64,000 bases of DNA. Origin: an uncultured Bacteroidales bacterium. GTDB taxonomy: Bacteria > Bacteroidota > Bacteroidia > Bacteroidales > UBA932. The position numbers and the translations under genes were made by a program. The stretch spans positions 1 to 64,000 of the forward strand of contig CAJOKD010000019.1 in assembly GCA_905235085.1 (NCBI GenBank), written 5' to 3'. The notes under the pieces are model-generated. The model was not told the origin of the DNA, did no database searches, and was given only the letters and a program-made list of their open reading frames with translations. Within the stretch, counting starts at the first letter, position 1; the number at the start of each line of letters is the position of its first letter. Below are positions 42,257 to 58,957 of the stretch, piece by piece.

Positions 42257-42347
42257 GCGGAAGCGAAATGCGAAGCCTATAAACATATGAAAAACTTTGT
42301 AAATGATATATTTTTATATATCTTTACGCAACTAAACAGGAACAACT

Positions 42348-42542
42348 ATGAGAACAATCAAAGTCCGCAAAGTGATAAAACTCTTGCAACAGGACGGCTG
42401 GGAAATCGTAAGGGTTAAAGGAGATCACAGGCAGTTTAAATGCAGGGACAAACCGGGGACGGTGACAGTCAGCGGGAAACTCAACGACGACGTCGATCCC
42501 TTTCTCCTAAACAGCATATGGAAACAAGCAGGTTGGAAATAA
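42348..42542 (+). CDS. hicA: HicA family mRNA interferase toxin
   Basis: VRKVIKLLQQDGWEIVRVKGDHRQFKCRDKPGTVTVSGKLNDDVDPFLLNSIWKQAG. Confidence 0.92.
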   Translation: MRTIKVRKVIKLLQQDGWEIVRVKGDHRQFKCRDKPGTVTVSGKLNDDVDPFLLNSIWKQAGWK

Positions 42543-42562
42543 TAGAATAAATGATCTAGACA

Positions 42563-42967
42563 ATGAATAATATGAAAATACTGATAGACTGGGTTCCGGA
42601 CAACTTTGCGGCAGCTCCGGTCAATGATGAGATAGCCTGCATTGCCACAGGAGAATCACTCGAAGAAGTCAAGAAGAATATTATTGATGCTCTGGAGTTC
42701 CATATGGAAGGCCTTGTCGAAAATGGTGAAGCTATCCCTGAGGAATTCCGCAGCGGAATGCCTCCAGAGTTCATCCTGACGACCAGGGCGCAACTGAAGT
42801 ATTGCGACCTGTACATTACCCGCAAGGCTCTTGCCAAGGAAACAGGTATCAACGAGCGGCAACTCAGCCATTACGCCAACGGGCTGCGCCACCCCAGGCC
42901 AGCGATGAGGCTCCGGATCTCAGAAGGTATCCGCGCCATCCGCGACCGACTCGGCGTCGTTCTTTAA
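42563..42967 (+). CDS. hicB: HicB family antitoxin with C-terminal HTH
   Basis: HicB fold then KALAKETGINERQLSHYANGLRHPRPAMRLRISEGIRAI. Confidence 0.9.
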   Translation: MNNMKILIDWVPDNFAAAPVNDEIACIATGESLEEVKKNIIDALEFHMEGLVENGEAIPEEFRSGMPPEFILTTRAQLKYCDLYITRKALAKETGINERQLSHYANGLRHPRPAMRLRISEGIRAIRDRLGVVL

Positions 42968-42977
42968 TGACTATAAT

Positions 42978-43293
42978 ATGGACAAGATAATAGCAATCAT
43001 TGAAAGGGCGTCAGACGGGACTTATGCCGTTTACTGCAAGGACCAGATCTTCTCCGGTGCCGGATCCTCCATCGAGGAAGCCAAGAAAGACATGGTGGTC
43101 CAGATGGCCTTCTATAAGGACACCGCTTTGAAAGAGGGCTTCAAGTACCCCGCCTTCCTTGACGAAATGTTCGAGATTGAATACACAATTGCGGGCATAT
43201 CTCCACGGCACTAAACCCCGCAAGACGCAGGCGGACCGCATCAGATCCGGATTCAGCACCTTGTACCACGACCTCGGCAGCGCGATGGTGTGA
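42978..43293 (+). pseudogene. second HicB-like antitoxin, disrupted
   Basis: MDKIIAIIERASDGTYAVYCKDQ...FEIEYT then frame change to QLRAYLHGTKPRKTQADRIRSGFSTLYHDLGSAMV* (stop 43291-43293). Confidence 0.7.
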
Positions 43294-43437
43294 ATGCTGG
43301 CCGAGTTCGTGGTTCATTCACTAACGAAAAAATGCCCGGCCCCGCCGAGCATCCTTCTCTATTCTGTCCACCCTGTGTACTCCGCCCACCGGATTCCCGT
43401 TCTCTGAGATTTGCTAAAGAAAGAATAACCCTTGTAT

Positions 43438-44580
43438 TTAGGACAGGGCATTGCATCCCGCAGTTATGTCGAAATAAACCTCCATTTCTTTCGGCTTCTT
43501 ATCCTGGGCGGACTTTACTTCAAAGCAAAGCCGGTCCAGTTTCTTATCGCCCACGCTTATCAGATGCTGGGCAATCATCTTCGATTCCAGATTCTTCAGT
43601 TGGAACAAGATGTCGGAAATGACATACTCAAGGTGGACGTATCCGTCAGTCTCGGTGATCACGATGGGATGCTCCTTGTCTTTTCCTATATGGAATTCGC
43701 AGTCCTCTTTATCAATCAATTCTGAGATATCTATCTTGTTGTCATAGAAAATGCGGGATGCGCCAATAGCATCGCCCAGATCTTCAATATCGAAATTGTA
43801 CCTAATTATTCCTGTTGCCACCATTCGGTCAACCTCAGTTCTGGCCGCCACCCTCGGATTGGGCTGCTGGACATTGATATTCGCCGGCCATCCGAAAACC
43901 CAGGCCTCAAGGTTTCTGACATCTACACCTACCTCGCGGGCAGTCTCACACATCAGCTCGCAGTAGTCATAATAGACATCCTCGAACTTTGTTGACTCAG
44001 CATAAGTCACTGTATTGTCAACAGGGAGATAGTAGAAGAACGGATTCCGTCCTGCTTCCGGCATCAAAGCAAAATGCACAGGCTGCATATTCTCATCATA
44101 AATCAGAGGACGATTGTTTAAATCCATATCAAAGGTAAGGAAGTAAAGCAACTTAGTGAAGTAGCTGGGGCCAATGCCATAGAAATAGTTTTCACCTCCT
44201 CTCTTCAAGGACGCAATGGCACCTTCAATTCTCTCAATGTCGGTCTCGGAGTTGCGTAGCAGCGCAGCAAGTCTCTCCAGTTTGGGCATAGTTGTATTGC
44301 GGTCGTTGTTCAGGGCAATTCCCTCAGCCTGAAAACGGCTGATCCCGCCCCACATGATAGTGGCCACGAAACCCTTGTATAGATCCTCACGGAAGAGTCT
44401 GACTACATCTTCACGAGACAATTCAGCAGGGAGATTCCGGACAACCTCTGCAAAATCGCCATCAGTGGCTTCTGCTCTTCCGACAGGATTGGCGAACCTG
44501 CCTTCGCGCCAATGGATAGAGGGTTGGACATAGTTGTTGATGTCGTCGATGTGGGTTTTGATTAAGTTGATAAATGACAT
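43438..44580 (-). CDS. OGG/HhH-fold DNA glycosylase-like protein
   Basis: FVATIMWGGISRFQAEGIA...ENYFYGIGPSYFTKLLYFLTFDMDLNNRPLIYDENM resembles OGG-fold proteins. Confidence 0.5.
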   Translation of the reverse strand: MSFINLIKTHIDDINNYVQPSIHWREGRFANPVGRAEATDGDFAEVVRNLPAELSREDVVRLFREDLYKGFVATIMWGGISRFQAEGIALNNDRNTTMPKLERLAALLRNSETDIERIEGAIASLKRGGENYFYGIGPSYFTKLLYFLTFDMDLNNRPLIYDENMQPVHFALMPEAGRNPFFYYLPVDNTVTYAESTKFEDVYYDYCELMCETAREVGVDVRNLEAWVFGWPANINVQQPNPRVAARTEVDRMVATGIIRYNFDIEDLGDAIGASRIFYDNKIDISELIDKEDCEFHIGKDKEHPIVITETDGYVHLEYVISDILFQLKNLESKMIAQHLISVGDKKLDRLCFEVKSAQDKKPKEMEVYFDITAGCNALS

Positions 44581-44674
44581 AGTATAGGTATTATAACAAT
44601 GTTAATTTTATTACCTGAAAACCAGGCAAACCTGATGAAGACCATTGCTCGGAAGAATCAGAGCTTAACCCATC

Positions 44675-45286
44675 CTACTCCCAAGGAAACATCTCGTGGT
44701 TCTGTTCCATCATGCTACCGAGTTTCCAGAACACAGAGTCGAGAATCTTCATATATCCGATTCCCTGACAGTTGAATCGCTTGCGGAAACTTCCCACGAT
44801 CGGATGGTCATTAAGCGAACGATAGGTATCAATAATATCAAGATAGATGGAATGCTGGTGGTCCAGGCGTGTCTCATCAGGATTGAATGGTTTCTGGAAC
44901 ACCAGGCCGACCATTCGGTCATAAATCGGATACTCGGCGTCATCCAGGAGATTGAGCATCTTTGTCGCGAAAGAGAAATAAGACTTCCCCATTGCAGGCC
45001 TTAACTCTTCCGTCAACTGCCTCGCACCTACGCCAGTATATGTATTACTGAGCGATTCCATCTTGGAGAAGAATGCCGCCTTACCCTCCCCCGGAACTAT
45101 CCCCATCCCATAGAAAGCAGAGAAAGCCCACTGGAACAAAGGGTTGCGACTGACATCCCCTTTCCGGAACTCATCCTTGAGGAAAGAATAAACCGCCACA
45201 TTGGTAGCGAAATAAGCATCTTCAAAAATCGAAGGGTCATTGGTTAAATAATAATCCAACAACCTGATAGCATTGTTATTAATCAT
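44675..45286 (-). CDS. HhH-glycosylase-like helical protein
   Basis: LRPAMGKSYFSFATKMLNLLDDAEYPIYDRMVGLVF; 203 aa. Confidence 0.4.
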   Translation of the reverse strand: MINNNAIRLLDYYLTNDPSIFEDAYFATNVAVYSFLKDEFRKGDVSRNPLFQWAFSAFYGMGIVPGEGKAAFFSKMESLSNTYTGVGARQLTEELRPAMGKSYFSFATKMLNLLDDAEYPIYDRMVGLVFQKPFNPDETRLDHQHSIYLDIIDTYRSLNDHPIVGSFRKRFNCQGIGYMKILDSVFWKLGSMMEQNHEMFPWE

Positions 45287-45533
45287 ACAGAATAAAATAT
45301 TAAAAACTATTCTTCGGGCTCTTCATTTAATCATCTAGACTTTGAGGTCAAGCGTCTCAAGTGGCAACAAGATTCACATCGGCTCTAATCTATGGGCTCA
45401 ATAAACCCATTAATACCAGATTCCAGGGTTTCTTCGTAAAACTCTCCCCTGCGGGTTTAAAACGATCGATGGACAGATACCACGCCGTCACATCGAAGAA
45501 ATACTGTAATAAGCATGTCGCTTTGTTCCTGAG

Positions 45534-46211
45534 TTATCTCGATCTTTGCCATGTCCAGACAATATGATCAAGATGTCTGGCTGTCATATCAGGATAGCCA
45601 TGCTCTCGGTAATACTCGACCGCATTACGGAATAGCGTTTTAATCTGTTCTTTAGTCAAAGGATGCCCCACTGCAGTCTCAGAAAAGCGTGTTAGCCAAG
45701 TGTCCACTTTAACGCCATCCTCGTCACCGGCAAGCATGAAGAAATAGTCTACAGCAACGTTCTGACCTTTGATACTCTTCAAAGCATTCTTCAAATCGTC
45801 ACTTTCCTCGCATAAACGGTTAACATCTTGAAAAGTCTCAATTCCAAACCTTTGAAAGACTTTCAAATACTCAAGAAATGCTTCCGCTTTGAGGATGCCG
45901 TTTCTCGAACTGGTTTTCTGCTTATTTTTTAATGCTTTCGCAAGCCTATCCCCATCATATCCTTCCAGACGCTTGACAAGATCCGATATTTTTACCTGCT
46001 CCTCTACACTTGGGAGTTTGTGGGGATCAGGAGCAGTCCGGACAATCTTGGTCAAATCGCAGAATCTGTCAAGCAGTGGACTAACAACAGAATAATATCT
46101 CGCCTGTATAGAAAAGACTGCATCTAAAGCACATAACCCGACACAGGAGTAATACTCCATGTCAGGAATAGGAGCTAATGCCCGGTCACAATGTCTTAGA
46201 AACAACTCCAT
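45534..46211 (-). CDS. HhH-glycosylase-like helical protein
   Basis: LKSIKGQNVAVDYFFMLAGDEDGVKVDTWLTRFSETAVG...TARHLDHIVWTWQRSR; start at MELFLRHCD chosen to follow the upstream stop. Confidence 0.45.
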   Translation of the reverse strand: MELFLRHCDRALAPIPDMEYYSCVGLCALDAVFSIQARYYSVVSPLLDRFCDLTKIVRTAPDPHKLPSVEEQVKISDLVKRLEGYDGDRLAKALKNKQKTSSRNGILKAEAFLEYLKVFQRFGIETFQDVNRLCEESDDLKNALKSIKGQNVAVDYFFMLAGDEDGVKVDTWLTRFSETAVGHPLTKEQIKTLFRNAVEYYREHGYPDMTARHLDHIVWTWQRSR

Positions 46212-46215
46212 CTCG

Positions 46216-46575
46216 CTACTTTTCTGTTGATTTTGCGCTGTACATTCCATAGATAACGCCCCAGGCGATAATAGCAAGAAGAAGAACGACAACAATGTAA
46301 ATGTCAACCTTGTATTCAAAGCACGAGAATATGATGTTCGCAGCCGCAATTGCAAGGACCATAATCCAAGAAAAGACCTTGATATTAACGCCCCTGTTTG
46401 CATTTACATATTTCAATCCCATAGCAGGGATAATGACACTCGCTATAGAAACGAATCCAATCGCTAGAGAAATCCAATTCCTGCTCTCAGTTTCAGGCGC
46501 AATTATCTCACATACAAACCCCAAGAGAACCGCAATAGCAAGGGCCAGTATGATTTTTATACCATCAATCTTCAT
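46216..46575 (-). CDS. small membrane protein, about 4 TM helices
   Basis: Alternating hydrophobic segments, e.g. ILALAIAVLLGFVCEIIAP, VFSWIMVLAIAAANIIFSCF. Confidence 0.7.
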   Translation of the reverse strand: MKIDGIKIILALAIAVLLGFVCEIIAPETESRNWISLAIGFVSIASVIIPAMGLKYVNANRGVNIKVFSWIMVLAIAAANIIFSCFEYKVDIYIVVVLLLAIIAWGVIYGMYSAKSTEK

Positions 46576-46576
46576 A

Positions 46577-46918
46577 TTACTTCATTTTAGCAAGGAAAAA
46601 CAGTTTGTTAACCTCCGGGACCTGGGCAGCGGGTGCCCAAACACTCATGCCAGGTTTCCACACCAAGGTCTCGGGCGTCAAAAGATCATTCTGCACCAAT
46701 TTTACTAACTCCTCATCGGAGAAAGGGCCAGCCTGCGTGCCGTCGACGGCAAGGTATGTCTGACTCTGCTCTTTTATTGGAGGCGGTGTAGGAGCGGTCC
46801 CCTGCTCATTCGGCTGAGGCATTACGCTATTGATCATTGCCGGCATCTGCTGAATCATTGACATTCCGATGCCTAATTCCATCATCTTTTCGATGAAGCT
46901 TCCGCTGTCTTCTGTCAT
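46577..46918 (-). CDS. GYF_2 (DUF4339) domain protein
   Basis: YLAVDGTQAGPFSDEELVKLVQNDLLTPETLVWKPGMSVWAPAAQVPEV. Confidence 0.8.
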   Translation of the reverse strand: MTEDSGSFIEKMMELGIGMSMIQQMPAMINSVMPQPNEQGTAPTPPPIKEQSQTYLAVDGTQAGPFSDEELVKLVQNDLLTPETLVWKPGMSVWAPAAQVPEVNKLFFLAKMK

Positions 46919-46920
46919 AG

Positions 46921-47256
46921 CTAAATCATTGAGATAATGTGAAGACAATCTTTGATGAACTTCCATTCCGGCCAGCCTTGTGTCCAAATATAGAAGTCAG
47001 GAGTGATGGCTTCAGCCTTGAGCAAATCCCGGATTTGCGCCAAAGTAAATGGACCTCGTTGTTCGGTCCCAGCTGCAAGTACATACTGCTCTTGCTCCTT
47101 ATTTTGGAAAACCGGGAGGACAACGTGCGGTTGAATGCCGAACTGCGGCACCTCGGTCTGCATTGCCTTGATGCTGTTCTTGGCCTGATCGGCCAAAGCT
47201 TGCCACTGATCTGAAGCAACAAGCTTATCCAAAGTATTAAAATCTAACTGTCTCAT
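46921..47256 (-). CDS. GYF_2 domain protein
   Basis: YVLAAGTEQRGPFTLAQIRDLLKAEAITPDFYIWTQGWPEWKFIKD. Confidence 0.75.
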   Translation of the reverse strand: MRQLDFNTLDKLVASDQWQALADQAKNSIKAMQTEVPQFGIQPHVVLPVFQNKEQEQYVLAAGTEQRGPFTLAQIRDLLKAEAITPDFYIWTQGWPEWKFIKDCLHIISMI

Positions 47257-47261
47257 AGTAA

Positions 47262-48806
47262 TTACGGCTTTGGGATTGGAGGTACACCAGGAATGGGCGG
47301 AGGAACCGTACCAGGAGGAGGTCCGAACAACGCGCTCAGGTCAGGAATAAGCTTCATCGGTTGCCAAGATGGCATACCCGTGCTCCACGCAAGGGTATCA
47401 CCATTAATCTGGCCCGCTGAGAGCATCTGACTAAGGGCGTTTACATCACAAGGGCCATACTGAGAACCGTTTATTGCAAGATACCATATAGCCTGTTGAG
47501 GCGAAGGAATAGGAGGTGGAGTCTGCTGAGGTTGGCCTGCAGAAGCCATTCCTTGCTGCATTGTCTGTCCCATTTGATTCATCATTCCTCCGACCTGCTG
47601 ACCCATCGCTGCGCCCATCATCATACCGGTCATCATGCCGGCAGGATTCATATGTCCATCCCCTCCGCCGAAATTCATCGAACCCATCTGCCCGATGTTT
47701 TCCATTCCTGTCTTGAGGACTTCCGCCTGCTTGTTGATACTGTGTGCGTTGATATATGCGGACTCGCTGCCCAGACCAGCCTGTTTCGCAGCCTGCTCCG
47801 TTTGTGAATGCTGAGCAAACTGGCCTTCCTCACGCATCCTAGCTGTCGCATCTTTTATGTGCTCCATCTGAATCTGCGCCATTTCCTTCGCAGTCTGGTT
47901 GCGAATGTCTGCATCAGTCCGCATCGTCTCTCGCTTAATCTCGAAACTGAGAAGAGTGGTCTTCTCATTCTCAAGGTTGTAAAGCTGTGCCTGATCTTCA
48001 GTGAGACGCTTGAGTTTCTGGTAACCTTCGCTATCCTCATCATATCGGATATCTTCTATGAGGATATCGCTTGCGAAGATGCCGAAACGTTGCATTATCC
48101 GCTCCTGAACACGGGAAAGAATATAATGCCCCATCTCACCTATGAGCTGGTTAAAGTGCATGATGAAAATGCTTGTATCCCTTGGGGCAGTAGCAACAAT
48201 CTGCTTAATTTCCTGAGTCAAGAGAGTCTTCACTTTCTCACGGAATTCCTCCATCTTTGTGTCGGATGTCCCCCATGCTTCCAGGAAGTATTTCACCATG
48301 GCAGGATCTGTCGGGACTTGGAATGCCATAGCCCCTTTTACCGCGACTTCAATGTCATAAGCTTTATACTCCGGTTCTGAAGGAATCACTCGGAAATACG
48401 GAATGGTGAATGGAAGCTCCATTCCACGAGCGAGATTGATATAATAGACCTCAGCTTGGAAAGGAGTGCCCCCTTTATAAGCCATACCTACGATTGAGGC
48501 GAGTACCGGCATATTATCTGTTCTGATAATATCGTCATAAGGCCCCACGATCACATCATACTCCCCTTTGTTCTGATAAAGGAACACTGCCGCCTGGCCC
48601 GGGCGCACTCGCAGGCTGCTCCCATAGCGGATGTTGTTTTCCTTGCGTGAAGCACCTGCTTCCGCCATTGAGTTTGGCCGCCACTTCCAAATGAGAAAAT
48701 CTTTCTCATCACAACGGATGGCATCCATTATGCCACCTTCTTTCCCACGGACTTGGCTTGAAAGCCCTTCCTGATTCGTTTTCTTATTAAAAAGACCCAT
48801 CTTCAC
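47262..48806 (-). CDS. SPFH-domain protein (YdjI-like) with C-terminal GYF_2
   Basis: GSSLRVRPGQAAVFLYQNK...YYINLARGMELPFTIP; Met/Gly-rich linker; IWYLAINGSQYGPCDVNALSQML...LAWSTGMPSWQPMKLIPDL. Confidence 0.85.
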   Translation of the reverse strand: MKMGLFNKKTNQEGLSSQVRGKEGGIMDAIRCDEKDFLIWKWRPNSMAEAGASRKENNIRYGSSLRVRPGQAAVFLYQNKGEYDVIVGPYDDIIRTDNMPVLASIVGMAYKGGTPFQAEVYYINLARGMELPFTIPYFRVIPSEPEYKAYDIEVAVKGAMAFQVPTDPAMVKYFLEAWGTSDTKMEEFREKVKTLLTQEIKQIVATAPRDTSIFIMHFNQLIGEMGHYILSRVQERIMQRFGIFASDILIEDIRYDEDSEGYQKLKRLTEDQAQLYNLENEKTTLLSFEIKRETMRTDADIRNQTAKEMAQIQMEHIKDATARMREEGQFAQHSQTEQAAKQAGLGSESAYINAHSINKQAEVLKTGMENIGQMGSMNFGGGDGHMNPAGMMTGMMMGAAMGQQVGGMMNQMGQTMQQGMASAGQPQQTPPPIPSPQQAIWYLAINGSQYGPCDVNALSQMLSAGQINGDTLAWSTGMPSWQPMKLIPDLSALFGPPPGTVPPPIPGVPPIPKP

Positions 48807-49136
48807 TTACTTCTTTTCTAAATATGCTTTACATATCGCTGGCACATCAGGTGCAAGAATATAACTTGGGTTTCTCCAACCTTTAGTTGTTGAATAGTTG
48901 CTGGATTTACCCCTTTCCTCGACAGAAAGAGAATCCATTCGATCACAAACACTTTTCCACAATGCTCGATCGATGTAGTAATGCCTCCCATCAATACCGA
49001 TGGTCATGATTGTCGCCTCGTTCTCGTACTTGATGTAAAAAAAACTCTCTCCACCAAGCATATCGATTCGTTTAACAACAGGTTTTCTCAGCCAAGTCAA
49101 AATGCGACCGAACTGAACGGATTTTAATTCTGGCAT
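48807..49136 (-). CDS. hypothetical protein in SPFH cassette
   Basis: 109 aa ORF tightly packed 5' of the SPFH gene; no recognised domain. Confidence 0.6.
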   Translation of the reverse strand: MPELKSVQFGRILTWLRKPVVKRIDMLGGESFFYIKYENEATIMTIGIDGRHYYIDRALWKSVCDRMDSLSVEERGKSSNYSTTKGWRNPSYILAPDVPAICKAYLEKK

Positions 49137-49284
49137 ATCATATATACTTTATGTAATTATCAATCAGTCCTGCATCCATAAGAAGAAACTCTATATTATG
49201 AGCGCAGAGTAACTTATAGCTAACTTAGTATCCATTCATGATCCTATTGTTTTCGTAATACTATCATTATTGATAACACGTTGC

Positions 49285-50247
49285 TCACTCGACTTTGTTT
49301 ATTGAGGCGAGCACAGATTCTCGCACTTCCGGATCAGAAATACTAGCTGCCACCACTTTAGCTTGTTGTATTTCGCCTTGCGATATCAAATACGAAACTT
49401 CTTGAGCCGAAATATCATCGATTAGTTTCGTCACATCTCCTGAATACTTATGTGCGGCTGACTTGGCTCCTTGATAATCATTGTTATGAATGCACATCTG
49501 TATCTGATCCTGAACGTTACTATCACTCTTAATCCCTAACGTGATGACGATTCCTGATACTAGAAAGCAAAGAGCTCCAACAATGATAGCAGCGCCATAT
49601 GATGCCCAGAAATCTTTTTTCCTCTTTTTCGAATACGCACTCTTTTTCTTGCCCTCTTGGTCTAATAATGACTTATAATGGCCGAGAAGGTCTCGAATCT
49701 CACTATTTGTATTACTATGTCTTTCCAATGCATGATAGGCTTGAAGAGACTTCCCGCGCCACGCATTTCTCACCGGTTCGCGCTTAGCATCTTTCTCATC
49801 CGTTCCGATAGCAGCATAATTGGAGTAAGACAATTCGAGCAATTGTAATAACCCTTCTTTTGTGGAGGGTATTGTAAAAGTGTTAATTATTGTTGCTTGT
49901 TTTTCGTAATTAGAAACATGACTCAATTTATCTTGAAGTTCGGCAATTTGCTTCCGTGCCATAATGCTAGCATAATTCTCCATCTCCAGGATAAACCCAC
50001 ATTCATGGCACTGGAGTGAAGCATCTGGTATTATGGCTCCACAATTTGGACACTTTCTTCTGTTTTCTCGGCTGCTCTGTCCTTGAATACTGCTGGTGGA
50101 GAATGCGCTCTCTAAATAAAACTCAATCTCATCATCGTCAATCCCATAAGCTTTGGCTTTTTTGAATATTATTTCCCTTTGCTTTGTTGTTAATCCACCA
50201 CTCTCCTTGGCAACGTTAATTAGTTTTTCAATATCAGGAGGATGCAT
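49285..50247 (-). CDS. zinc-ribbon + single TM protein
   Basis: CPNCGAIIPDASLQCHECGF; TM ASYGAAIIVGALCFLVSGIVITLGI; start at MHPPDIEKL. Confidence 0.75.
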   Translation of the reverse strand: MHPPDIEKLINVAKESGGLTTKQREIIFKKAKAYGIDDDEIEFYLESAFSTSSIQGQSSRENRRKCPNCGAIIPDASLQCHECGFILEMENYASIMARKQIAELQDKLSHVSNYEKQATIINTFTIPSTKEGLLQLLELSYSNYAAIGTDEKDAKREPVRNAWRGKSLQAYHALERHSNTNSEIRDLLGHYKSLLDQEGKKKSAYSKKRKKDFWASYGAAIIVGALCFLVSGIVITLGIKSDSNVQDQIQMCIHNNDYQGAKSAAHKYSGDVTKLIDDISAQEVSYLISQGEIQQAKVVAASISDPEVRESVLASINKVE

Positions 50248-50293
50248 ACTAATTTGAATTATAATCTTTGGGTATAACACTTCCCTGTGAATT

Positions 50294-51902
50294 CTATTCA
50301 CTAGGTTCCTTTAATGAAATAACAAAACTCTCCACATCCTTATCATCTACACAGTATTCAACTGTAACATCATCTGATACTACCTGCTCTTTTGACGGAT
50401 AATCAACCGTTGTCTTTCTCCGAATTCGTAGGTTACCATAGTATTCAAAATCATAATAGTATAGCGGAAAATCATCATATTCATCTAATGTCACTATAAT
50501 TTGGTTTAACCGCCCATTCTTATAATCGTAGTGATATGTGTTTGAGCTTAGCTTACTTAATGGGGCTTCATCTTTTTGGAATAACGTATCGATTTGAGAT
50601 CTTTCTAGCAGATACTTTATTTTAACTGTTGAAAGCAAATGTCCTCTATTACCATAGTCATATATAACCTCCTTAGTCGGAATCCCTTTATAAGATATTA
50701 TTTCTTTAGCCAATAAAACACCACCATATTCGAACTCATAAGTCAAGCTATAATAAGGTATATTAATTCTCTCTATGCGATCTGCAAATCTAATTACTTC
50801 TGAATTTCGAATACCCGGATAACCATTTTCCCATGCTTTCCACATATAATGCTGTGAGTAGTAATCTTGAACAAAATCTGGAAAGCGGAATTCGTAAGGC
50901 TCTGGTATTGTTATATCGTTCATGACTTTCAGGTAATCGGACCAAACCATTACGCCTGATCTAAGATTTACCGATCGCTCCATTCTAAGAGACTTGTCTG
51001 CCCTATAATACAGAGTATAACTCGAGTCAGGCTCACTCGCTAAGCCAACATAATGATCTTTTAGAGTATCTTTAAGTGGATAAAACGACATCCGGTCATT
51101 TAACAAACTGTACTTTCCTATTTCATCAACATACAGATGTATAGAATCAGGAGAATTAGTCTTGCCGCACATTATTAAAGCCTCTTTAATAAGACCATTC
51201 TGAGCCAAGATTTCTATTGCTTTGACCTCGCGCATATAGCATATCAGCAGCATTCTCATAAAGTCCTGCTTCAGTAAACACTTCAATTGCTTTATCCTCC
51301 CTTCCTAAAAAACCAAGAAGTCGAGCTGCTACTTGTTCGTTCCCGCTATTGACAAGCAGACTTGGCCAATCATAGAATAATACAAAAGCCACCAGCAATG
51401 CTAAACCAGCCAGACAAGAAAGGAGAGTCCAACGCCTCTTCTTATAATTGCCCGACAGTTTTGTAATAGCCTTTTTATCACCTAGAACCTTGTATTTTTC
51501 TAAGAGATCTTTTACTGAAGCATTCTCTTTTATCCCCTCCAGTCGGCGATAGGATTCCGCCGCCTTGCCCAACCATGCAATAGTCAGTTTTTTATCCCCA
51601 GACTCTTTGCATGCCTCGTAGTTTGAATATGAAAGATGAAGCAGGCGAGAGAGAGACTCCGCCGTATTCGGAACAGGAAATGAGTTAATAATGGATGCCT
51701 TCTTCTTTGACGACGACACCCCTGGGCTAAATACTTTATCCACTGCAAGAAGCTTTTCCTGTAAGTCCAGGATTGCATCAGTCGTGCTCTGGCTCCTTGC
51801 CGTTTCATTCATTAATGTATAACCACACTCCGGGCATTTTAATTCCATACCCGACAATGGTGCCCCACAATTAGGACATAAGTTCTTTCTATCTACGGCC
51901 AT
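50294..51902 (-). pseudogene. zinc-ribbon + TM protein, apparently frameshifted into two ORFs
   Basis: N-part (51186..51902) CPNCGAPLSGMELKCPECGY...AGLYENAADMLYAR; C-part (50294..51286) continues EVKAIEILAQNGLIKEALIMCGKTN in another frame. Confidence 0.65.
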
Positions 51903-51930
51903 TGTTTAGTGTTATTATGTTCCAAATATC

Positions 51931-52275
51931 TTATGCAATAGAATCCAATTTACCCCTGTATTTGTATGTGACAGAATGGCTCTCCTCATCATACTGCACC
52001 TCAAAGACCAGGTCTGTCCCAGGAGCATCGAGATGATTTGCAATGATCCATCGCTTCAGCTCTGCATTAGATACCCCACCTCTCCGGCTATAGTTAACCA
52101 AACGTCTCAGTGAAATCCGAGGATGATTTGGGAGAACAAAGTGCACAGCCGCCACTGCCTGGGGATCCTCACCACATATTTCTCTCCAAACATCAGTTGC
52201 TGTACTATTGCCAATAGCGACGTGACCAAGTGGTGTCACCCCTCGCACAACACGCAGTAAAACAAGTTTATCCAT
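51931..52275 (-). CDS. hypothetical protein, first gene of the SPFH cassette
   Basis: MDKLVLLRVVRGVTPLGHVAIGNSTATDVWREICGED; no recognised family. Confidence 0.5.
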   Translation of the reverse strand: MDKLVLLRVVRGVTPLGHVAIGNSTATDVWREICGEDPQAVAAVHFVLPNHPRISLRRLVNYSRRGGVSNAELKRWIIANHLDAPGTDLVFEVQYDEESHSVTYKYRGKLDSIA

Positions 52276-52426
52276 ACTCCAACAGTTATTAGTTTTGTCG
52301 TACAGTGTAATTTTTCGCCTCAAAAATAAACCTCTCCTTGACACGAATCAAGTTCACATTGGTTCAAATGAGAGCGGGGCAATAAATCCATATTCGCCAG
52401 ACCCGGAACGATTATTAAAAAAAAGA

Positions 52427-52500
52427 AAGTGTGGGCCTCCTAGACTTATCCAGAGGTGGGCTCTCGACAGCCGTGACGTGGATAAGGGATGCTCACACTT
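52427..52500. ncRNA. candidate structured RNA / terminator
   Basis: Three nested stems: AAGTGTGGGC/GCTCACACTT, CTTATCC/GGATAAG, GGCT/AGCC; A-rich tract at 52416-52428 would be a T tract downstream on the minus strand. Confidence 0.45.
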
Positions 52501-52758
52501 CCGCTATAGAATGAGCAGAGCCCATACTAATAGCCAGTGCAAGCGTTCGCTCTTATTCCTCCGTCACTTTGAATTGTCGAGATTCACCTACAAGGAATAG
52601 CTAAACGCTTTCTGTATGTATTATGCTGCATCAAAAACAGCAACTAGACAAATATAATTATTAATCTTTGAGAACCAATCAGAATTTGGTTCAAATTAGT
52701 TCAAAAGATGTTTGCGATTGATTCTCGGATCAATTCCAAACGTGCAGGGTCGTTCAAC

Positions 52759-53709
52759 TTATCTCTCATAGATCAAGTACTTATCCCGATCTACGGATGA
52801 GGAGGCGAAGGGCTTCAAGTACCCATTTTCAACCAAGTCGACTTGGCGACCGGTAATTCTCTCAAGATCCAGTTTGTGCCGGATAATGTCCAGCAAGGAA
52901 ACCTTAGCCTCCGGGGCGTATTCAACCAGCAGATCGATGTCACTCTCAGGTGTTTCTTCCTTGCGAGCGAAAGACCCGAATATCCAAGCTCGGCTGATTG
53001 GGAGAACCTTTGAAAAATACCTCTGGATGTTCCTGAACATTACCACCCTCCCGTCATCTACGAAAGAGAGGCTTTTATCCAATTCATCAGCCACTCCCCT
53101 CCTTGACGCATAGCGCCTCATACGGTCATAATTAACCGGATATACTTCAAGAGCGCGTTGAAAATCAATACATTGAGGGATGCCCTTATTGCCAGTCCGG
53201 CAAAGAGAATCCACGAGATCCTTTTCCAAAGAGGGCACAGGGCAGCCGGACACCTCTTTCATAGGAGCTTCAGAGACTAATGCTCCAACAACAATATAGC
53301 CCTCCAGGGGTACTGGAAACAGGTTGAAGTCTTTAACACTGATGACTTTCTGATATTTCTTCGTCAGCGAGGTAAACACTGTCTGGAGATTGCTCCTGGC
53401 CACCTCAATCCACATATTCAATCCCTTCTGGACTATGCAGTGATCGATTCCAACACATTGATTGTTCAGATACTCATTTACTTCCAGCATCCATTCTGTC
53501 ACAGGGACGACATATTCTGGTCTATGCACTGCCAGATATCGACCGCGCCCAGTCCTCGATAGAACGCCGCTACGAACCAACGACCGGATACGTGAGTGAA
53601 CAGTTTGGAAAGGAAGATCCGGATTGACCGCAACGAAATCAGCAACAGTCAATTCCCCTTCCCGAGCCAGCAGGTCTTCGTATTCAGATTTTGCCATCAG
53701 TGTTCCCAT
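52759..53709 (-). CDS. AbiEi-like wHTH regulator fused to MNT nucleotidyltransferase
   Basis: N-terminal wHTH FQTVHSRIRSLVRSGVLSRTGRGRYLAV; C-terminal AWIFGSFARKEETPESDIDLLVEY (GSxAR...SDIDL). Confidence 0.75.
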   Translation of the reverse strand: MGTLMAKSEYEDLLAREGELTVADFVAVNPDLPFQTVHSRIRSLVRSGVLSRTGRGRYLAVHRPEYVVPVTEWMLEVNEYLNNQCVGIDHCIVQKGLNMWIEVARSNLQTVFTSLTKKYQKVISVKDFNLFPVPLEGYIVVGALVSEAPMKEVSGCPVPSLEKDLVDSLCRTGNKGIPQCIDFQRALEVYPVNYDRMRRYASRRGVADELDKSLSFVDDGRVVMFRNIQRYFSKVLPISRAWIFGSFARKEETPESDIDLLVEYAPEAKVSLLDIIRHKLDLERITGRQVDLVENGYLKPFASSSVDRDKYLIYER

Positions 53710-53734
53710 CGGAAAAGAAACTTGTTCTTTCCTA

Positions 53735-53742
53735 CAAATATA
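53735..53742 (-). promoter_or_regulatory. -7 element of wHTH-nucleotidyltransferase gene
   Basis: Reverse complement TATATTTG (TAnnTTTG), 26 bp upstream of the start. Confidence 0.5.
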
Positions 53743-53744
53743 TC

Positions 53745-53783
53745 AATATTTCGGCAATATCAATCAGAAATTGCCGAAATATT
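53745..53783. promoter_or_regulatory. perfect 14-bp inverted repeat operator
   Basis: AATATTTCGGCAAT - 11 nt - ATTGCCGAAATATT adjacent to the -7 box. Confidence 0.65.
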
Positions 53784-53797
53784 TAAAAATAAACTAG

Positions 53798-54856
53798 CTA
53801 TTCGAACAATTCCGTGGCCTGGCGGAAGACTTCGTCGATGGCGCGCTGGTCGGAGATCGTGGAGGAGTCCTTGCGACTGGCCGACTGCTTGCTCTTTGGC
53901 TTAGGCTTGTCCATTGGTGCGGTAGGTGCGCCCTGTCCGGACACGACAGAAGGCGCCGGAGAATCAGGGAGTACAACGCTATCATCCTGCGAGGCCATGG
54001 TCGCAACAGTATCTGCAACAGCTTCGGGTTCAGCAGGTTCTCGAGAAAGGAGATGCCTCTCCAACGTAGGCACCAGCGCCATAAGAGCAATGAATAGGAT
54101 GAATATCACTCCAGCTACAACCGACCAGTTGCTCTTCAGTGCCTTTGTAACCTCCGCCACAGAAGCATACCGGTTCTCCGGCCTTGGGGAGCAAAGCTTA
54201 CGAACGACTGAAGAATACTTCCTCACAGGGAACAGAGACATCACCATTCCCAGGGAATACAAGTCACTCCGCACGTTCGCCTTGCCGCCCTCACGAACCT
54301 CCGGAGCTGCATAGACTGCTGTCCCGGCCGGGTTCTTCAAGATAGAGGAAGAGTCCGCGTCTGATAGGCCGAAGTCAATGAGCCTGACATTGTTGCCGGA
54401 ATATGTAACGAGGATGTTCGAAGGTTTCAAATCCCTATGCAGGACCTGCCGGGAATGCATATACGACAAGGCAGAGCAAATCTCCCCCACTATCTTGTCG
54501 CAGACGCTCCTTTCCGGTTTCCCCTCGGTCAGGAAAGACTCGAGGGTTCGCCCGTCCACCCATTCCATCTCAATGCAATTGCCGAGCGAAGGGTCCTTTA
54601 TGAATGAATAATACTCACAGATATTCTCGTGCCTAAGGGAATACCCTATTTCGAATTCTTTCTTGAGAAGCCTCTCATATACAGGCACTTCCCTATATTC
54701 CTCCTTAAGGCACTTCAGCACTCGGAAACGCCCGGAACGGTCGATCCTCCAGATTTCGGAATATCCTCCTTCGGAAGAACTGACAAGTTCCCTTGCATCA
54801 GTGGCAGGGGTCGCTTCCGCCGAAGGCGTATCAAAGAATTCCGAGGTATTATCCAT
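53798..54856 (-). CDS. Ser/Thr protein kinase with TM segment
   Basis: VLKCLKEEYR, HRDLKPSNILV, LIDFGLSD, YAAPEVR; TM VAGVIFILFIALMALVP; start at MDNTSEFF. Confidence 0.92.
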   Translation of the reverse strand: MDNTSEFFDTPSAEATPATDARELVSSSEGGYSEIWRIDRSGRFRVLKCLKEEYREVPVYERLLKKEFEIGYSLRHENICEYYSFIKDPSLGNCIEMEWVDGRTLESFLTEGKPERSVCDKIVGEICSALSYMHSRQVLHRDLKPSNILVTYSGNNVRLIDFGLSDADSSSILKNPAGTAVYAAPEVREGGKANVRSDLYSLGMVMSLFPVRKYSSVVRKLCSPRPENRYASVAEVTKALKSNWSVVAGVIFILFIALMALVPTLERHLLSREPAEPEAVADTVATMASQDDSVVLPDSPAPSVVSGQGAPTAPMDKPKPKSKQSASRKDSSTISDQRAIDEVFRQATELFE

Positions 54857-54894
54857 GCCCAAATATCCACATTTTTAAGTACATTTGCAACAGT

Positions 54895-55827
54895 ATGCGT
54901 AGGTTCCTGGTATTCGTAATCATCCTTGTACCGCTGTTCTTCCAAGTAGCGGCATTTGGTCAAGATTCCAAGATGGATCTTGCACTGGACCACTATGAGA
55001 CCATAATCGACAGGTGCATCCTGATGCGTGACAGGGCGCAGCGCGGAGAGAAGATCGAGGCGGATGAACTCAAGTCGTTGCTGGAACAGGTATCCAGCCT
55101 CAGGACTACACTTCAGAATAGTTCAAAAGGAATGACTGCCCGCCAGAGGGAACGATTCGAAAAGATAAAGAGGCGCTACACTGTGGCTTTCCAGCCTGGG
55201 AAGGTTGTGTCCCGGTCTGTTGTTCGGCTGCCAAAGGTGGATTGGGTGCCAAGGGTGGAGGAGATCCTTCGCTTCGCTCAGGATGACAGGTTGGATGCCA
55301 GTTGTCATCCTGAGGGAGCGCAGCGACCGAAGGATCTTCGCTTCGCTCAGGATGAGGCTCCGTGGCGGATAGGGGTGATGGCTATCGGTGGCTGGCAACC
55401 TTCCACCCTGAGTTACGGCGCGATGGCCACAGTGACCCACAACAGGTTGGGATTCTACATCAAGGGGCGATCCAACTTCACGAAGGATATCCATGAGTCA
55501 ATCTGTTCCAGCGACGGGACTTCGGAAGGGACGATCATCTGGAGCACCGGCCGGGAAAAGCATCCCGCGTGGAATCTTGGAGCCGGAGTGATATTCAAGA
55601 TTGCCGGGCCTCTCGGCATATACGCAGGAAGCGGCTACGGAAACAGGACAACTCTATGGGAAGAAGCCTCAGGGAGTTGGGCGAAGGTGGAAGAGTATTC
55701 ATTCAAAGGTGCCTGTGCCGATGCCGGTATAGTCCTGGACATCAGCAATTTCACCGCTTCTCTCGGAATAAGTTCCATCACATTCAGGAACCCTTCCTTG
55801 GAAATGGGAGTCGGACTGCGATTCTGA
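54895..55827 (+). CDS. secreted hypothetical protein carrying an in-frame REP-like segment
   Basis: Signal peptide MRRFLVFVIILVPLFFQVAAFGQ; EEILRFAQDDRLDASCHPEGAQRPKDLRFAQDE encoded by a palindromic repeat; porin-like C-terminus MGVGLRF. Confidence 0.75.
   Translation: MRRFLVFVIILVPLFFQVAAFGQDSKMDLALDHYETIIDRCILMRDRAQRGEKIEADELKSLLEQVSSLRTTLQNSSKGMTARQRERFEKIKRRYTVAFQPGKVVSRSVVRLPKVDWVPRVEEILRFAQDDRLDASCHPEGAQRPKDLRFAQDEAPWRIGVMAIGGWQPSTLSYGAMATVTHNRLGFYIKGRSNFTKDIHESICSSDGTSEGTIIWSTGREKHPAWNLGAGVIFKIAGPLGIYAGSGYGNRTTLWEEASGSWAKVEEYSFKGACADAGIVLDISNFTASLGISSITFRNPSLEMGVGLRF
55261..55354. repeat. REP-like palindromic repeat inside a CDS
   Basis: GATCCTTCGCTTCGCTCAGGATGACA...TGTCATCCTGAGGGAGCGCAGCGACCGAAGGATC plus a second CTTCGCTTCGCTCAGGATGA. 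Confidence 0.8.
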
Positions 55828-55849
55828 TCCGCAGTCCCAGCTGCACATT

Positions 55850-56428
55850 CTACTTGATTATATCCAGTACGTTGAGGCCCTCAGCTTTGGCCGCGACGTA
55901 GGGCGGAGTGCTTGTACCATCCGCCCGGAGTACGGAAGAGATGAAAAGCGGGACGCCCAGGATGAATTCGGAGGACTCGAATCTGTCGCCCTTGTGAAGC
56001 TTGGAGTTTTCTGAAGAAAGCACCTCGAAGGAAGTCCCTCCCAGGAACTTGATCTTCACCACCCTGTTCGGTGCCCAACCCAAGATTACTTCCTCTCCGA
56101 CATTCAGCGAAGAAGCCTCAACCGTCTTGCTGGTGAAGAACGTGGACACGACCGCTCCGGAATCCACCAATGCTTTCCGGAAAGCCTTGAAGTCGTGATA
56201 ACCCAGATAACGGGACAACGTGTCAAGTGTAGATATCCTGGGGCAGGATGAATATGACACATAGCCCCAGAGCCTCTTGAGGGTGGATGCTGAGATCAAC
56301 TCTCCTATCTCGCGTTCAACCACGAATGAGAGAAGTTCAAAGTCGGTCGTCGTGGACAGACGGTGGCCGAACTTTTCCTCCACCTGGCGGAGCAGTTCGG
56401 CGAGTTCCGGTATGAAAGGTGTTCCCAT
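55850..56428 (-). CDS. hypothetical protein
   Basis: LISASTLKRLWGYVSYSSCPRISTLDTLSRYLGYHDFKAF, a pattern I associate with Bacteroidota hypothetical proteins. Confidence 0.6.
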   Translation of the reverse strand: MGTPFIPELAELLRQVEEKFGHRLSTTTDFELLSFVVEREIGELISASTLKRLWGYVSYSSCPRISTLDTLSRYLGYHDFKAFRKALVDSGAVVSTFFTSKTVEASSLNVGEEVILGWAPNRVVKIKFLGGTSFEVLSSENSKLHKGDRFESSEFILGVPLFISSVLRADGTSTPPYVAAKAEGLNVLDIIK

Positions 56429-56491
56429 GATGTTGCAATATTACGGAATATCACCCGGTCCTGTCAAGTCCACAATGGTTCAAATTCAATT

Positions 56492-58321
56492 TCAGTCCTG
56501 CTTGACCACGATCCTGGTCCCGCTCGGAATGCACTTGTCGCTCCGGTTCTCAGTGACGTAAGGGATGACTTGACCAGGAGCGACATACAATACATCCAGA
56601 AGATTCTTTCCGGAGGAATCGTTCATCGGCGAGCACCAGAGGCCATTGGAATTAGGATCCACAGTATTCTTTTTCCCGACTTGCGGGTTGTGTGACAGGT
56701 CTAATGTACGGATTTGGTTCTCCCAGCAACGTATCCACGTGAGTTTCGTGTTATTCGTCAAGTCCAAAGTGGTTAATCCGCAATTCCAACAAGCGAGTTC
56801 TTCAAGTTCCTTATTAGTTGACAGGTCGATGGTTCCCAACTGGTTGCCGTCTATGCTCAGGACTCTCAGAGCCGGATTATGACTGACATCAAGGGATGTA
56901 AGACCTGAGTTGGCACACTCCAAGACACTAAGTGACGGCAATGAAGATACATCCAAGCTACCCAGCGGATTACCCCAACACTTGAGAGTCTCCACACTGT
57001 TTGGCACCGAAAGAGAGGTAATCAGATTATCCCAGATATGTACTGTTTTCAAATTAGTACAAGAAGTTAGGTCAACGTCTGTAATTGCGTTGGAATCAGC
57101 ATAGAGCAACCGCAATTTAGGATTGTTGGAAAGGACCAGCCTGCCAAATATGCTATTTGAACCAATACTTAACACTTCAAGATTCTTCAAGGAACTCACA
57201 TCCACCGAAGTTATTCCGCAATAAGGGTAATGCAATTCTATCAATCCGGGATTGGCCGACAGATCTGAAATGGACAGAGCGGCTTGACTCACAATCAAAT
57301 ATTTGAGATAATGATTTGAAGATACATCTACATTGAGACAAGGCCCTATTACCTGTCCCAGATCATCGACTGGATATTCGAAGGTCAATCTAGCGAGCCT
57401 CTGCATCTTTGACAAATCAGGCACATATGGATTCGTGCAACGTCCCAACGATAATTCTTGTAGATAATAATTCTTGGACACATCAGGATAATCCATCATC
57501 GTGCCGTCCAGATTCAATATCTTCAAATCCGGGTTTCGGGATAAGTCAATGGTCTTTTGGTGCACCCCCAAGGCCGCATTATTATATAGCCAGAGATCCT
57601 GCAACCTCTTATTCTTGCTTACATCGATACTCCTAAGGGTTCCGATAGGGCCATGCCAATGATCTCCTTCTTTACGGAACAAAGGTGACTCAGTATACTT
57701 ATATGGAGAGCTATAAGCCTCATTGCTAGTATTATTCGAATCATACCAATCCCCCGGGCAGTCGATATGGATCAGATTGGGCATATACTCTATGCCTTGA
57801 AGAGATTGGACGTTGTATCTGTTGGTTACAATATGTATCAAATTAATACGTTCCGCCTCATCAAGACTGATTTCTCCATCACCATCGGAATCGTAATTCT
57901 CAACCAGATAAGCCTTGAAACAAGGATCCTCTATCGGTATAGCTTTCGGGTTAAATGGCCTCTCAGGAACTGTAAATGATTCATTCTCAGACTTGATGAC
58001 ACTATTGCCGGCCGTCGCGAAAGCATGCCACTGGTAGGTCTTGCCATATTCAAGACCCTTGGCTACGGCTTTGAATGAATCTCCTGAAGGGAGAGCGAGC
58101 AGGACGCTTTCCTGCTCTCCCGGGATTCCATACGCGAATCCTACCTTTTCTGCCCGCGTAGATGAAAGGACGCAGGTGAAACTGACTGAATCTCCGGATA
58201 CGACAGCCTCGGATGAGACTATACTTGGAGCCACATAGTCTTTGCTGCCGGTTTCCTTCAGGGAACAGGAAGCTGCGGTTAAGGTCAGGGCAGTCAGAAG
58301 GATATTCAGGAATCTTCTCAC
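56492..58321 (-). CDS. leucine-rich-repeat lipoprotein
   Basis: Lipobox LTAASC; LRR ladder (LDVSSLPSLSVLECANSGLTSLDVSHNPALRVLSIDGNQLGTIDLS). Confidence 0.85.
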   Translation of the reverse strand: MRRFLNILLTALTLTAASCSLKETGSKDYVAPSIVSSEAVVSGDSVSFTCVLSSTRAEKVGFAYGIPGEQESVLLALPSGDSFKAVAKGLEYGKTYQWHAFATAGNSVIKSENESFTVPERPFNPKAIPIEDPCFKAYLVENYDSDGDGEISLDEAERINLIHIVTNRYNVQSLQGIEYMPNLIHIDCPGDWYDSNNTSNEAYSSPYKYTESPLFRKEGDHWHGPIGTLRSIDVSKNKRLQDLWLYNNAALGVHQKTIDLSRNPDLKILNLDGTMMDYPDVSKNYYLQELSLGRCTNPYVPDLSKMQRLARLTFEYPVDDLGQVIGPCLNVDVSSNHYLKYLIVSQAALSISDLSANPGLIELHYPYCGITSVDVSSLKNLEVLSIGSNSIFGRLVLSNNPKLRLLYADSNAITDVDLTSCTNLKTVHIWDNLITSLSVPNSVETLKCWGNPLGSLDVSSLPSLSVLECANSGLTSLDVSHNPALRVLSIDGNQLGTIDLSTNKELEELACWNCGLTTLDLTNNTKLTWIRCWENQIRTLDLSHNPQVGKKNTVDPNSNGLWCSPMNDSSGKNLLDVLYVAPGQVIPYVTENRSDKCIPSGTRIVVKQD

Positions 58322-58392
58322 AACTGCCCAAATATACGAATAATTCTAACAAATTCAGGCTGCCAGTTTCCTGACAGCCTGATTGTTTTTGG

Positions 58393-58465
58393 TCGGGATG
58401 ATCCGACTCGAACGGACGACCCCTACGTCCCGAACGTAGTGCGCTACCAACTGCGCTACATCCCG
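58393..58465 (-). tRNA. tRNA-Pro (CGG)
   Basis: Reverse complement CGGGATGTAGCGCAGTTGGTAGCGCACTACGTTCGGGACGTAGGGGTCGTCCGTTCGAGTCGGATCATCCCGA. Confidence 0.92.
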
Positions 58466-58525
58466 ATGCCGGTCCTGCCGGACTTAGCTTGAAAAAGCAG
58501 CCTTCGGGAGACTGCCTTCGCTTTC

Positions 58526-58780
58526 TTAATCGAGTTTGTTGATGTAAACTGCGATACCGCTCTTGAGGTTGGAAGCCTTGTTCTTGTGGATGACTCCGAT
58601 CTTGGCGAGCTTGTCGATCATTGCATAGACCTTCGGTGCTCCCTCTTCAGCCTCTTTCTTGTCGGTTGTGTTCCTAATCGCGCGAATCGCGTTTCGCGTC
58701 GATTTTGCATAATACTTATTATGCAATCTATGCCTTTCGCTCTGGCGAATGGCCTTCTTTGTAGATGCGTGATTTGCCAT
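58526..58780 (-). CDS. rpsT: 30S ribosomal protein S20
   Basis: [35 protein letters not shown]...[23 protein letters not shown]. Confidence 0.95.
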
Positions 58781-58800
58781 CGTTGTTATTTTTTAATATT

Positions 58801-58875
58801 TGGTAGTGGGTAGGAGAATCGAACTCCTATTGCGGGAATGAAAATCCCGAGTACTAACCGTTATACGAACCCACC
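58801..58875 (-). tRNA. tRNA-Glu (TTC), CCA encoded
   Basis: Reverse complement GGTGGGTTCGTATAACGGTTAGTACTCGGGATTTTCATTCCCG...GAGTTCGATTCTCCTACCCACTACCA. Confidence 0.92.
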
Positions 58876-58957
58876 AGAAGTGACCCAAGTAGGCGTTACG
58901 CCAAATTGGGATGCAAATATATGGATTATTTTCGAGCCTGCAAAATAATTTTGCTCC

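Follow-up and report, generated by a model that had tools for sequence, protein, structure and literature searches.

In the 64,000-nucleotide stretch of contig CAJOKD010000019.1 from an uncultured Bacteroidales bacterium (the window), a run of minus-strand genes between positions 45534 and 52275 contains a cassette whose core is a conserved unit and no chance neighbourhood. This core consists of a zinc-ribbon protein with a transmembrane (TM) helix, named here ZT (gene c, 49285..50247), an SPFH protein that ends in a GYF_2 domain (gene e, 47262..48800), stand-alone GYF_2 proteins (gene f, 46921..47256, 111 aa, and gene g, 46577..46918, 113 aa, with a PPP linker) and a 119-aa protein with four TM helices (4TM; gene h, 46216..46575), which belongs to no named family and has no accepted Pfam match. 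Judging from the sequences and by analogy, we favour with modest confidence the interpretation that the unit may be a PspA-independent analogue, in Bacteroidota, of the Bacillus YdjGHI proteins, that is a four-part membrane platform for envelope stress or homeostasis.

The first-pass annotation of the window had regarded the whole run as one candidate system, and a neighbourhood search was carried out on 80 loci from species-representative genomes, fetched by the SPFH-GYF_2 protein alone as query, in which the recurrent neighbours were scored with profiles built from the window genes. It was clearly demonstrated that SPFH-GYF_2, zinc-ribbon, GYF_2 and 4TM genes are co-conserved across Bacteroidota: a ZT homologue lay at most 2.5 kb from the SPFH gene in 74 of the 80 loci (83 near matches, 82 of them on the SPFH strand), and a homologue of h in 71 (71/71 on the SPFH strand); the remaining 0.80 Mb of the same loci, more than 2.5 kb away, held 3 ZT and 2 h matches. 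A stand-alone GYF_2 gene followed the SPFH gene in 71/80 loci, at least two such genes being present in 13. The usual order was ZT, SPFH-GYF_2, GYF_2, 4TM, with median gaps of 17.5 bp, 18 bp and 3 bp respectively, and ZT stood downstream of SPFH in 7 loci. According to the record titles the loci come from Bacteroidales, Flavobacteriales, other Bacteroidota, Kapaibacterium and Treponema; Treponema and one Bacillota-like contig are the outliers beyond Bacteroidota. The 114-aa, 109-aa and nucleic-acid-enzyme-like genes, also counted into the system at first, recur in 1, 1 and 0 of the 80 loci (a in L034 alone, d in L035 alone, i in none) and had to be removed from it as cargo of the island.

The product of gene e (512-514 aa) was recognized in Pfam by Band_7_1 (PF13421, E 3e-21), followed by a proline-rich linker, and by GYF_2 (PF14237, 4e-17) at its C-terminus, beyond which a PPPIP-type tail extends (...VPPPIPGVPPIPKP). 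The small proteins matched the same GYF_2 family (4.7e-12 for f, 1.4e-17 for g), and the GYF_2 scores of e, f and g, 62.0, 45.9 and 63.6 bits, stand against a Pfam cut-off of 25.8. No TM helix was predicted by hydropathy in the gene e product or in any of the 80 SPFH homologues; 76 of them have PPP immediately N-terminal to GYF_2 and 79 a proline-rich tail C-terminal to it. The motif PPP[ILMV]P was present in 52/80 SPFH proteins and 12/78 small GYF_2 proteins, and in none of 839 background open reading frames (ORFs). Proline-rich peptides are the established ligands of the GYF family. Since receptor (GYF_2) and ligand (the proline tails) are encoded together in the cassette, self-crosslinking of an SPFH array would be the simplest mechanism, and the fact that the SPFH protein has no TM helix, carries GYF_2 and ends in a PPPIP-like tail suggests such GYF-proline self-crosslinking at the membrane, with ZT and 4TM as anchors.

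Hydropathy gave four TM helices in protein h and in 65/73 of its homologues, and one TM helix in each of the two zinc-ribbon proteins of the window, whose zinc ribbons score just below the Pfam cut-offs. In ZT the cysteines C66, C69, C80 and C83 are invariant across 43 homologues, and the N-terminus weakly resembles TerB in 19/43 and DUF533 in 21/43 of these (E<=0.05; best 5e-5 and 5e-6, respectively), the window copy c itself being unmatched. The AlphaFold model of c (predicted local distance difference test 89.8) consists of N-terminal helices, a C4 zinc ribbon, a helical bundle, a long TM-containing helix and a helical C-terminus; a fold search with it returned non-specific helical matches alone and no convincing solved fold.

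A second copy of ZT, gene b (51186..51902), is broken by a frameshift. Its 238-aa product, with zinc ribbon and TM helix, aligns at 57% identity with the N-terminal part of a 573-aa protein that is intact in locus L036, and a 330-aa out-of-frame ORF (50294..51286) continues this alignment over residues 251-567 at 28% identity, beginning where b stops; the frameshift lies at 51186-51286. The interruption may be due to mutation, assembly error or recoding; no evidence of recoding was found in gene b.

All genes named in the first-pass annotation, including SPFH, GYF_2, zinc-ribbon and 4-TM genes, are present on the minus strand and are transcribed in the order a, b, the out-of-frame remainder of b, c, d, e, f, g, h and i. 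The gaps, described there as mostly under 10 bp, are so in the 3' half, from the 109-aa gene to the glycosylase-like gene, and wider elsewhere (148 bp between c and d, 28 bp between a and b). Gene a (51931..52275, 114 aa) and gene d (48807..49136, 109 aa), an insert separating ZT from SPFH, are variable and have no Pfam match. Gene i (45534..46250) had been called glycosylase-like: its AlphaFold model, searched with Foldseek, has helix-hairpin-helix DNA glycosylases as top PDB matches (probability 0.8-0.96, E about 0.1), which gives weak support to the fold; its membership in the cassette did not hold. None of 393 other genomes from the order contains a relative of gene i; one with 33% identity occurs in genome G507 at the same chromosomal hotspot, where the cassette is missing. 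Gene i is cargo of the hotspot and not of the cassette.

This hotspot of the genus is delimited by rseP (window 39547) and a DUF4837-like gene (window 58961), which are adjacent in most of 41 genus genomes. The variable island occupies window 42300-58900 between them, where the two genes are 18 kb apart, compared with 1.8 kb in G523 and 26 kb in G507; in the latter the cargo differs and includes zinc-ribbon, AAA, PP2C and kinase genes besides the relative of gene i. The guanine-cytosine content is 36-46% over most of the cassette versus about 55% left of the island, and inside the island there is no promoter matching the -33/-7 pattern of Bacteroides. Within the family the cassette is patchy: 18 of 200 genomes matched the SPFH query, mostly with a distant short lineage. 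Genes e, f and g are 82-96% identical (f 96%) between the window genome and G326, a member of a different genus, whereas the flanking kinase is only 44% identical in L036, the contig corresponding to G326, and this difference suggests that the core has moved horizontally, is under selection, or both. An invertible element was considered, as the window and L034 carry the cassette in opposite orientations with respect to its flanks, yet no long inverted repeats border it. A plasmid origin was rejected (plasmid matches are distant SPFH sequences alone, covering <=53% of the query), and so was a prophage origin: the one phage-titled match, locus L215 (MT835670.1, UNVERIFIED, titled Bacteriophage sp.), which carries ZT, SPFH-GYF_2 and another zinc-ribbon protein, appears from its content to be bacterial chromosome, with ABC transporter and two-component-type genes.

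Some other neighbours deserve mention. At window 43438-45286 an OGG-like protein (PF21790, 2e-19) adjoins a 203-aa protein. In L034, too, the 203-aa protein and the OGG-like C-terminal part are found next to the cassette, in inverted relative orientation; profile comparison, with very few sequences, gave no kinship of gene i with either of the two. Directly upstream of the cassette, at window 52759-53709, there is a nucleotidyltransferase fused to a DUF6577 (AbiEi-like) region, for which no toxin partner was identified. In L199 (4682-13241) and L200 a variant cassette stands amid exported proteins (DUF6175, TPR-like and uncharacterised families), an arrangement repeated in several loci; this type is possibly a larger envelope system.

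A Ser/Thr kinase with a TM helix (53798..54862, minus strand; Pkinase 3e-34) and p192, a 192-aa protein without Pfam match (55850..56428, minus strand), are associated with the cassette. A protein kinase was found in 17/80 loci, and its 18 copies in 1.27 Mb, where the frequency in 59 order genomes would predict about 0.6, amount to a roughly 28-fold enrichment, the probabilities of which ignore the kinship of the loci; at the rate of the most kinase-rich genome sampled only about 4 copies would be expected. The p192 gene, present in 25/80 loci and rare elsewhere, is the habitual neighbour of the kinase: by coordinates it lies beside a kinase in several other genomes, and the two are paired at several further Bacteroidales sites.

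The literature describes ydj-type operons and links between PspA and band-7 proteins (PMC11237479, PMC9239133, PMC8581546). YdjI, the Band-7 SPFH protein of Bacillus, has no TM helix and relies at the membrane on YdjG/H, which are membrane proteins (PMC8581546), and the pspA-ydjGHI operon of Bacillus subtilis (PMC8581546, PMC11237479) shares with the cassette a Band_7_1-type SPFH protein of this kind, a zinc-ribbon membrane protein, a second membrane protein and the compact operon structure. The parallel to ydjGHI, which had been drawn in the first reading, is sound in anatomy, since the SPFH protein of the cassette has no TM helix while its neighbours do; ZT and YdjG, both with zinc ribbon and TM, are likened by architecture. 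By this analogy the cassette may work like YdjGHI. In other respects the two differ, because the SPFH protein of the cassette ends in GYF_2 and YdjI in a C-terminal zinc ribbon, and the cassette has separate GYF_2 proteins and, in place of the TPM-domain YdjH, the 4-TM protein; no cassette protein matched the TPM domain in Pfam. PspA (PF04012) had no match in the genome of the window, nor in 7 of 9 other cassette genomes, with a sub-threshold match in the eighth and a single one over the cut-off (1/9), so by the tested definition the cassette is not a Psp system.

The nearest solved relative of the GYF_2 domain is the homologous GYF domain of the Myxococcus motility protein GltJ/AglX (PDB 7z3c, E 1.3e-7). 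That protein has no SPFH domain and belongs to the gliding machinery, with a separate architecture. GltJ also combines a zinc finger with GYF and recruits partners to the membrane. The NfeD-stomatin/flotillin operons (PMC2636767) likewise pair an SPFH gene with a small membrane protein, but no NfeD domain was found in the cassette, which has another SPFH subfamily and zinc-ribbon and GYF_2 partners. Bacteroidales also have a lineage of short SPFH-GYF_2 proteins (370-410 aa), in many cases with a zinc-ribbon gene close by; its SPFH part is only about 23-28% identical, and in the 3.4-kb loci examined it had neither a 4TM homologue nor a separate GYF_2 gene. The four core genes appear not to have been described previously as a unit: no description of an SPFH-GYF_2-4TM cassette was found in the openly readable literature.

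In the proposed model the SPFH subunits would assemble as rings or arrays beneath the inner membrane of gut-type Bacteroidota, where ZT and the 4-TM protein would hold them, and the GYF_2 domains of SPFH and of the small adaptors could bind the proline tails of adjacent subunits, thereby crosslinking the array. The zinc-ribbon/TerB head of ZT might be a regulatory or client-binding surface. Such a platform would act like YdjGHI, without PspA, and serve envelope stress or membrane-protein homeostasis with variable clients, often exported proteins encoded downstream; the kinase-p192 pair, nearby in about a fifth to a third of loci, probably regulates it. That the cassette encodes a kinase-controlled, PspA-independent, self-crosslinking SPFH-GYF scaffold, in which contacts between GYF and proline, perhaps under a phosphorylation switch, gate the assembly and bring in locus-specific exported clients, is put forward tentatively, and we regard it as rather unlikely in this full form.

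The YdjGHI-like platform is favoured by the co-conservation, the fixed order and short gaps, the proline motifs around GYF_2, the match to 7z3c, the lack of TM helices in SPFH, the kinase enrichment and an excess of exported-like products downstream. Other observations weigh against it. Hydropathy recognized no TM helix in 27/86 ZT homologues, GYF-PPP binding in the cassette is extrapolated, and the kinase-p192 pair is missing from most loci. The exported-like genes downstream are diverse, as 90/111 accessory clusters are confined to a single locus, the recurrent operonic accessories being DUF6175 (7/133) and DUF6591 (5/133). The excess of exported-like products, which speaks for the platform, amounts to 59/102 downstream operonic accessory genes against 231/706 in the background (upstream ones equal the background), but its p-value of about 1.5e-6 is inflated by related loci and refers to a downstream set that may include genes outside the transcription unit.

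The swapping of neighbours around a kept core would also be expected if the SPFH platform sensed membrane damage in phage defence or biological conflict, with the variable neighbours as effectors. The patchy presence in a low-GC island, the nuclease-like or channel neighbours of single loci (Mrr, GIY-YIG, Ion_trans) and the OGG-like, nucleotidyltransferase and kinase genes close by in the window agree with this role. We nevertheless consider it improbable: a link to defence, for which a test of co-occurrence with defence islands was proposed at the outset, was not borne out, as PADLOC families showed no enrichment in 133 operonic neighbours relative to 123 non-operonic genes from these loci, and most operonic accessories lack a toxin or nuclease domain; DUF6175, DUF6591 and exported proteins are those that recur. 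Among the cassette proteins themselves a PADLOC search gave weak zinc-finger matches alone (E 0.002-0.004).

A stomatin-like complex for osmotic or ion homeostasis, in which SPFH regulates channels, is to a similar degree doubtful. Ion_trans stands beside the cassette in G186, a locus that also has a DnaJ-type zinc-finger gene, and Castor/Pollux channels occur in three loci, but channels are found in just a few of the 80. A salt-tolerance fosmid from the gut carries kinase, DnaJ zinc-finger, GYF_2 (DUF4339) and TM2 proteins around stlA (PMC3861447); it is likened to the cassette by gene content and has no reported SPFH gene. The excess of exported-like products downstream, and the known partnership of SPFH proteins with proteases, would suit protein quality control, or an assembly chaperone, resembling HflKC-FtsH and acting on exported and membrane proteins; we hold this to be as unlikely as the other two, for no FtsH-type protease was recognized among the frequent partners of the cassette.

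The surveys of the Psp response considered here centre on PspA, and the cassette genomes, mostly without a PspA match, still carry a conserved SPFH/zinc-ribbon platform. If the YdjGHI-like platform is correct, Bacteroidota would possess an envelope-stress scaffold with a simple assembly rule, the binding of GYF_2 to its own proline tails, the 4-TM protein and ZT, both of uncharacterised families, would gain partners, and a YdjI-type module could function apart from PspA.

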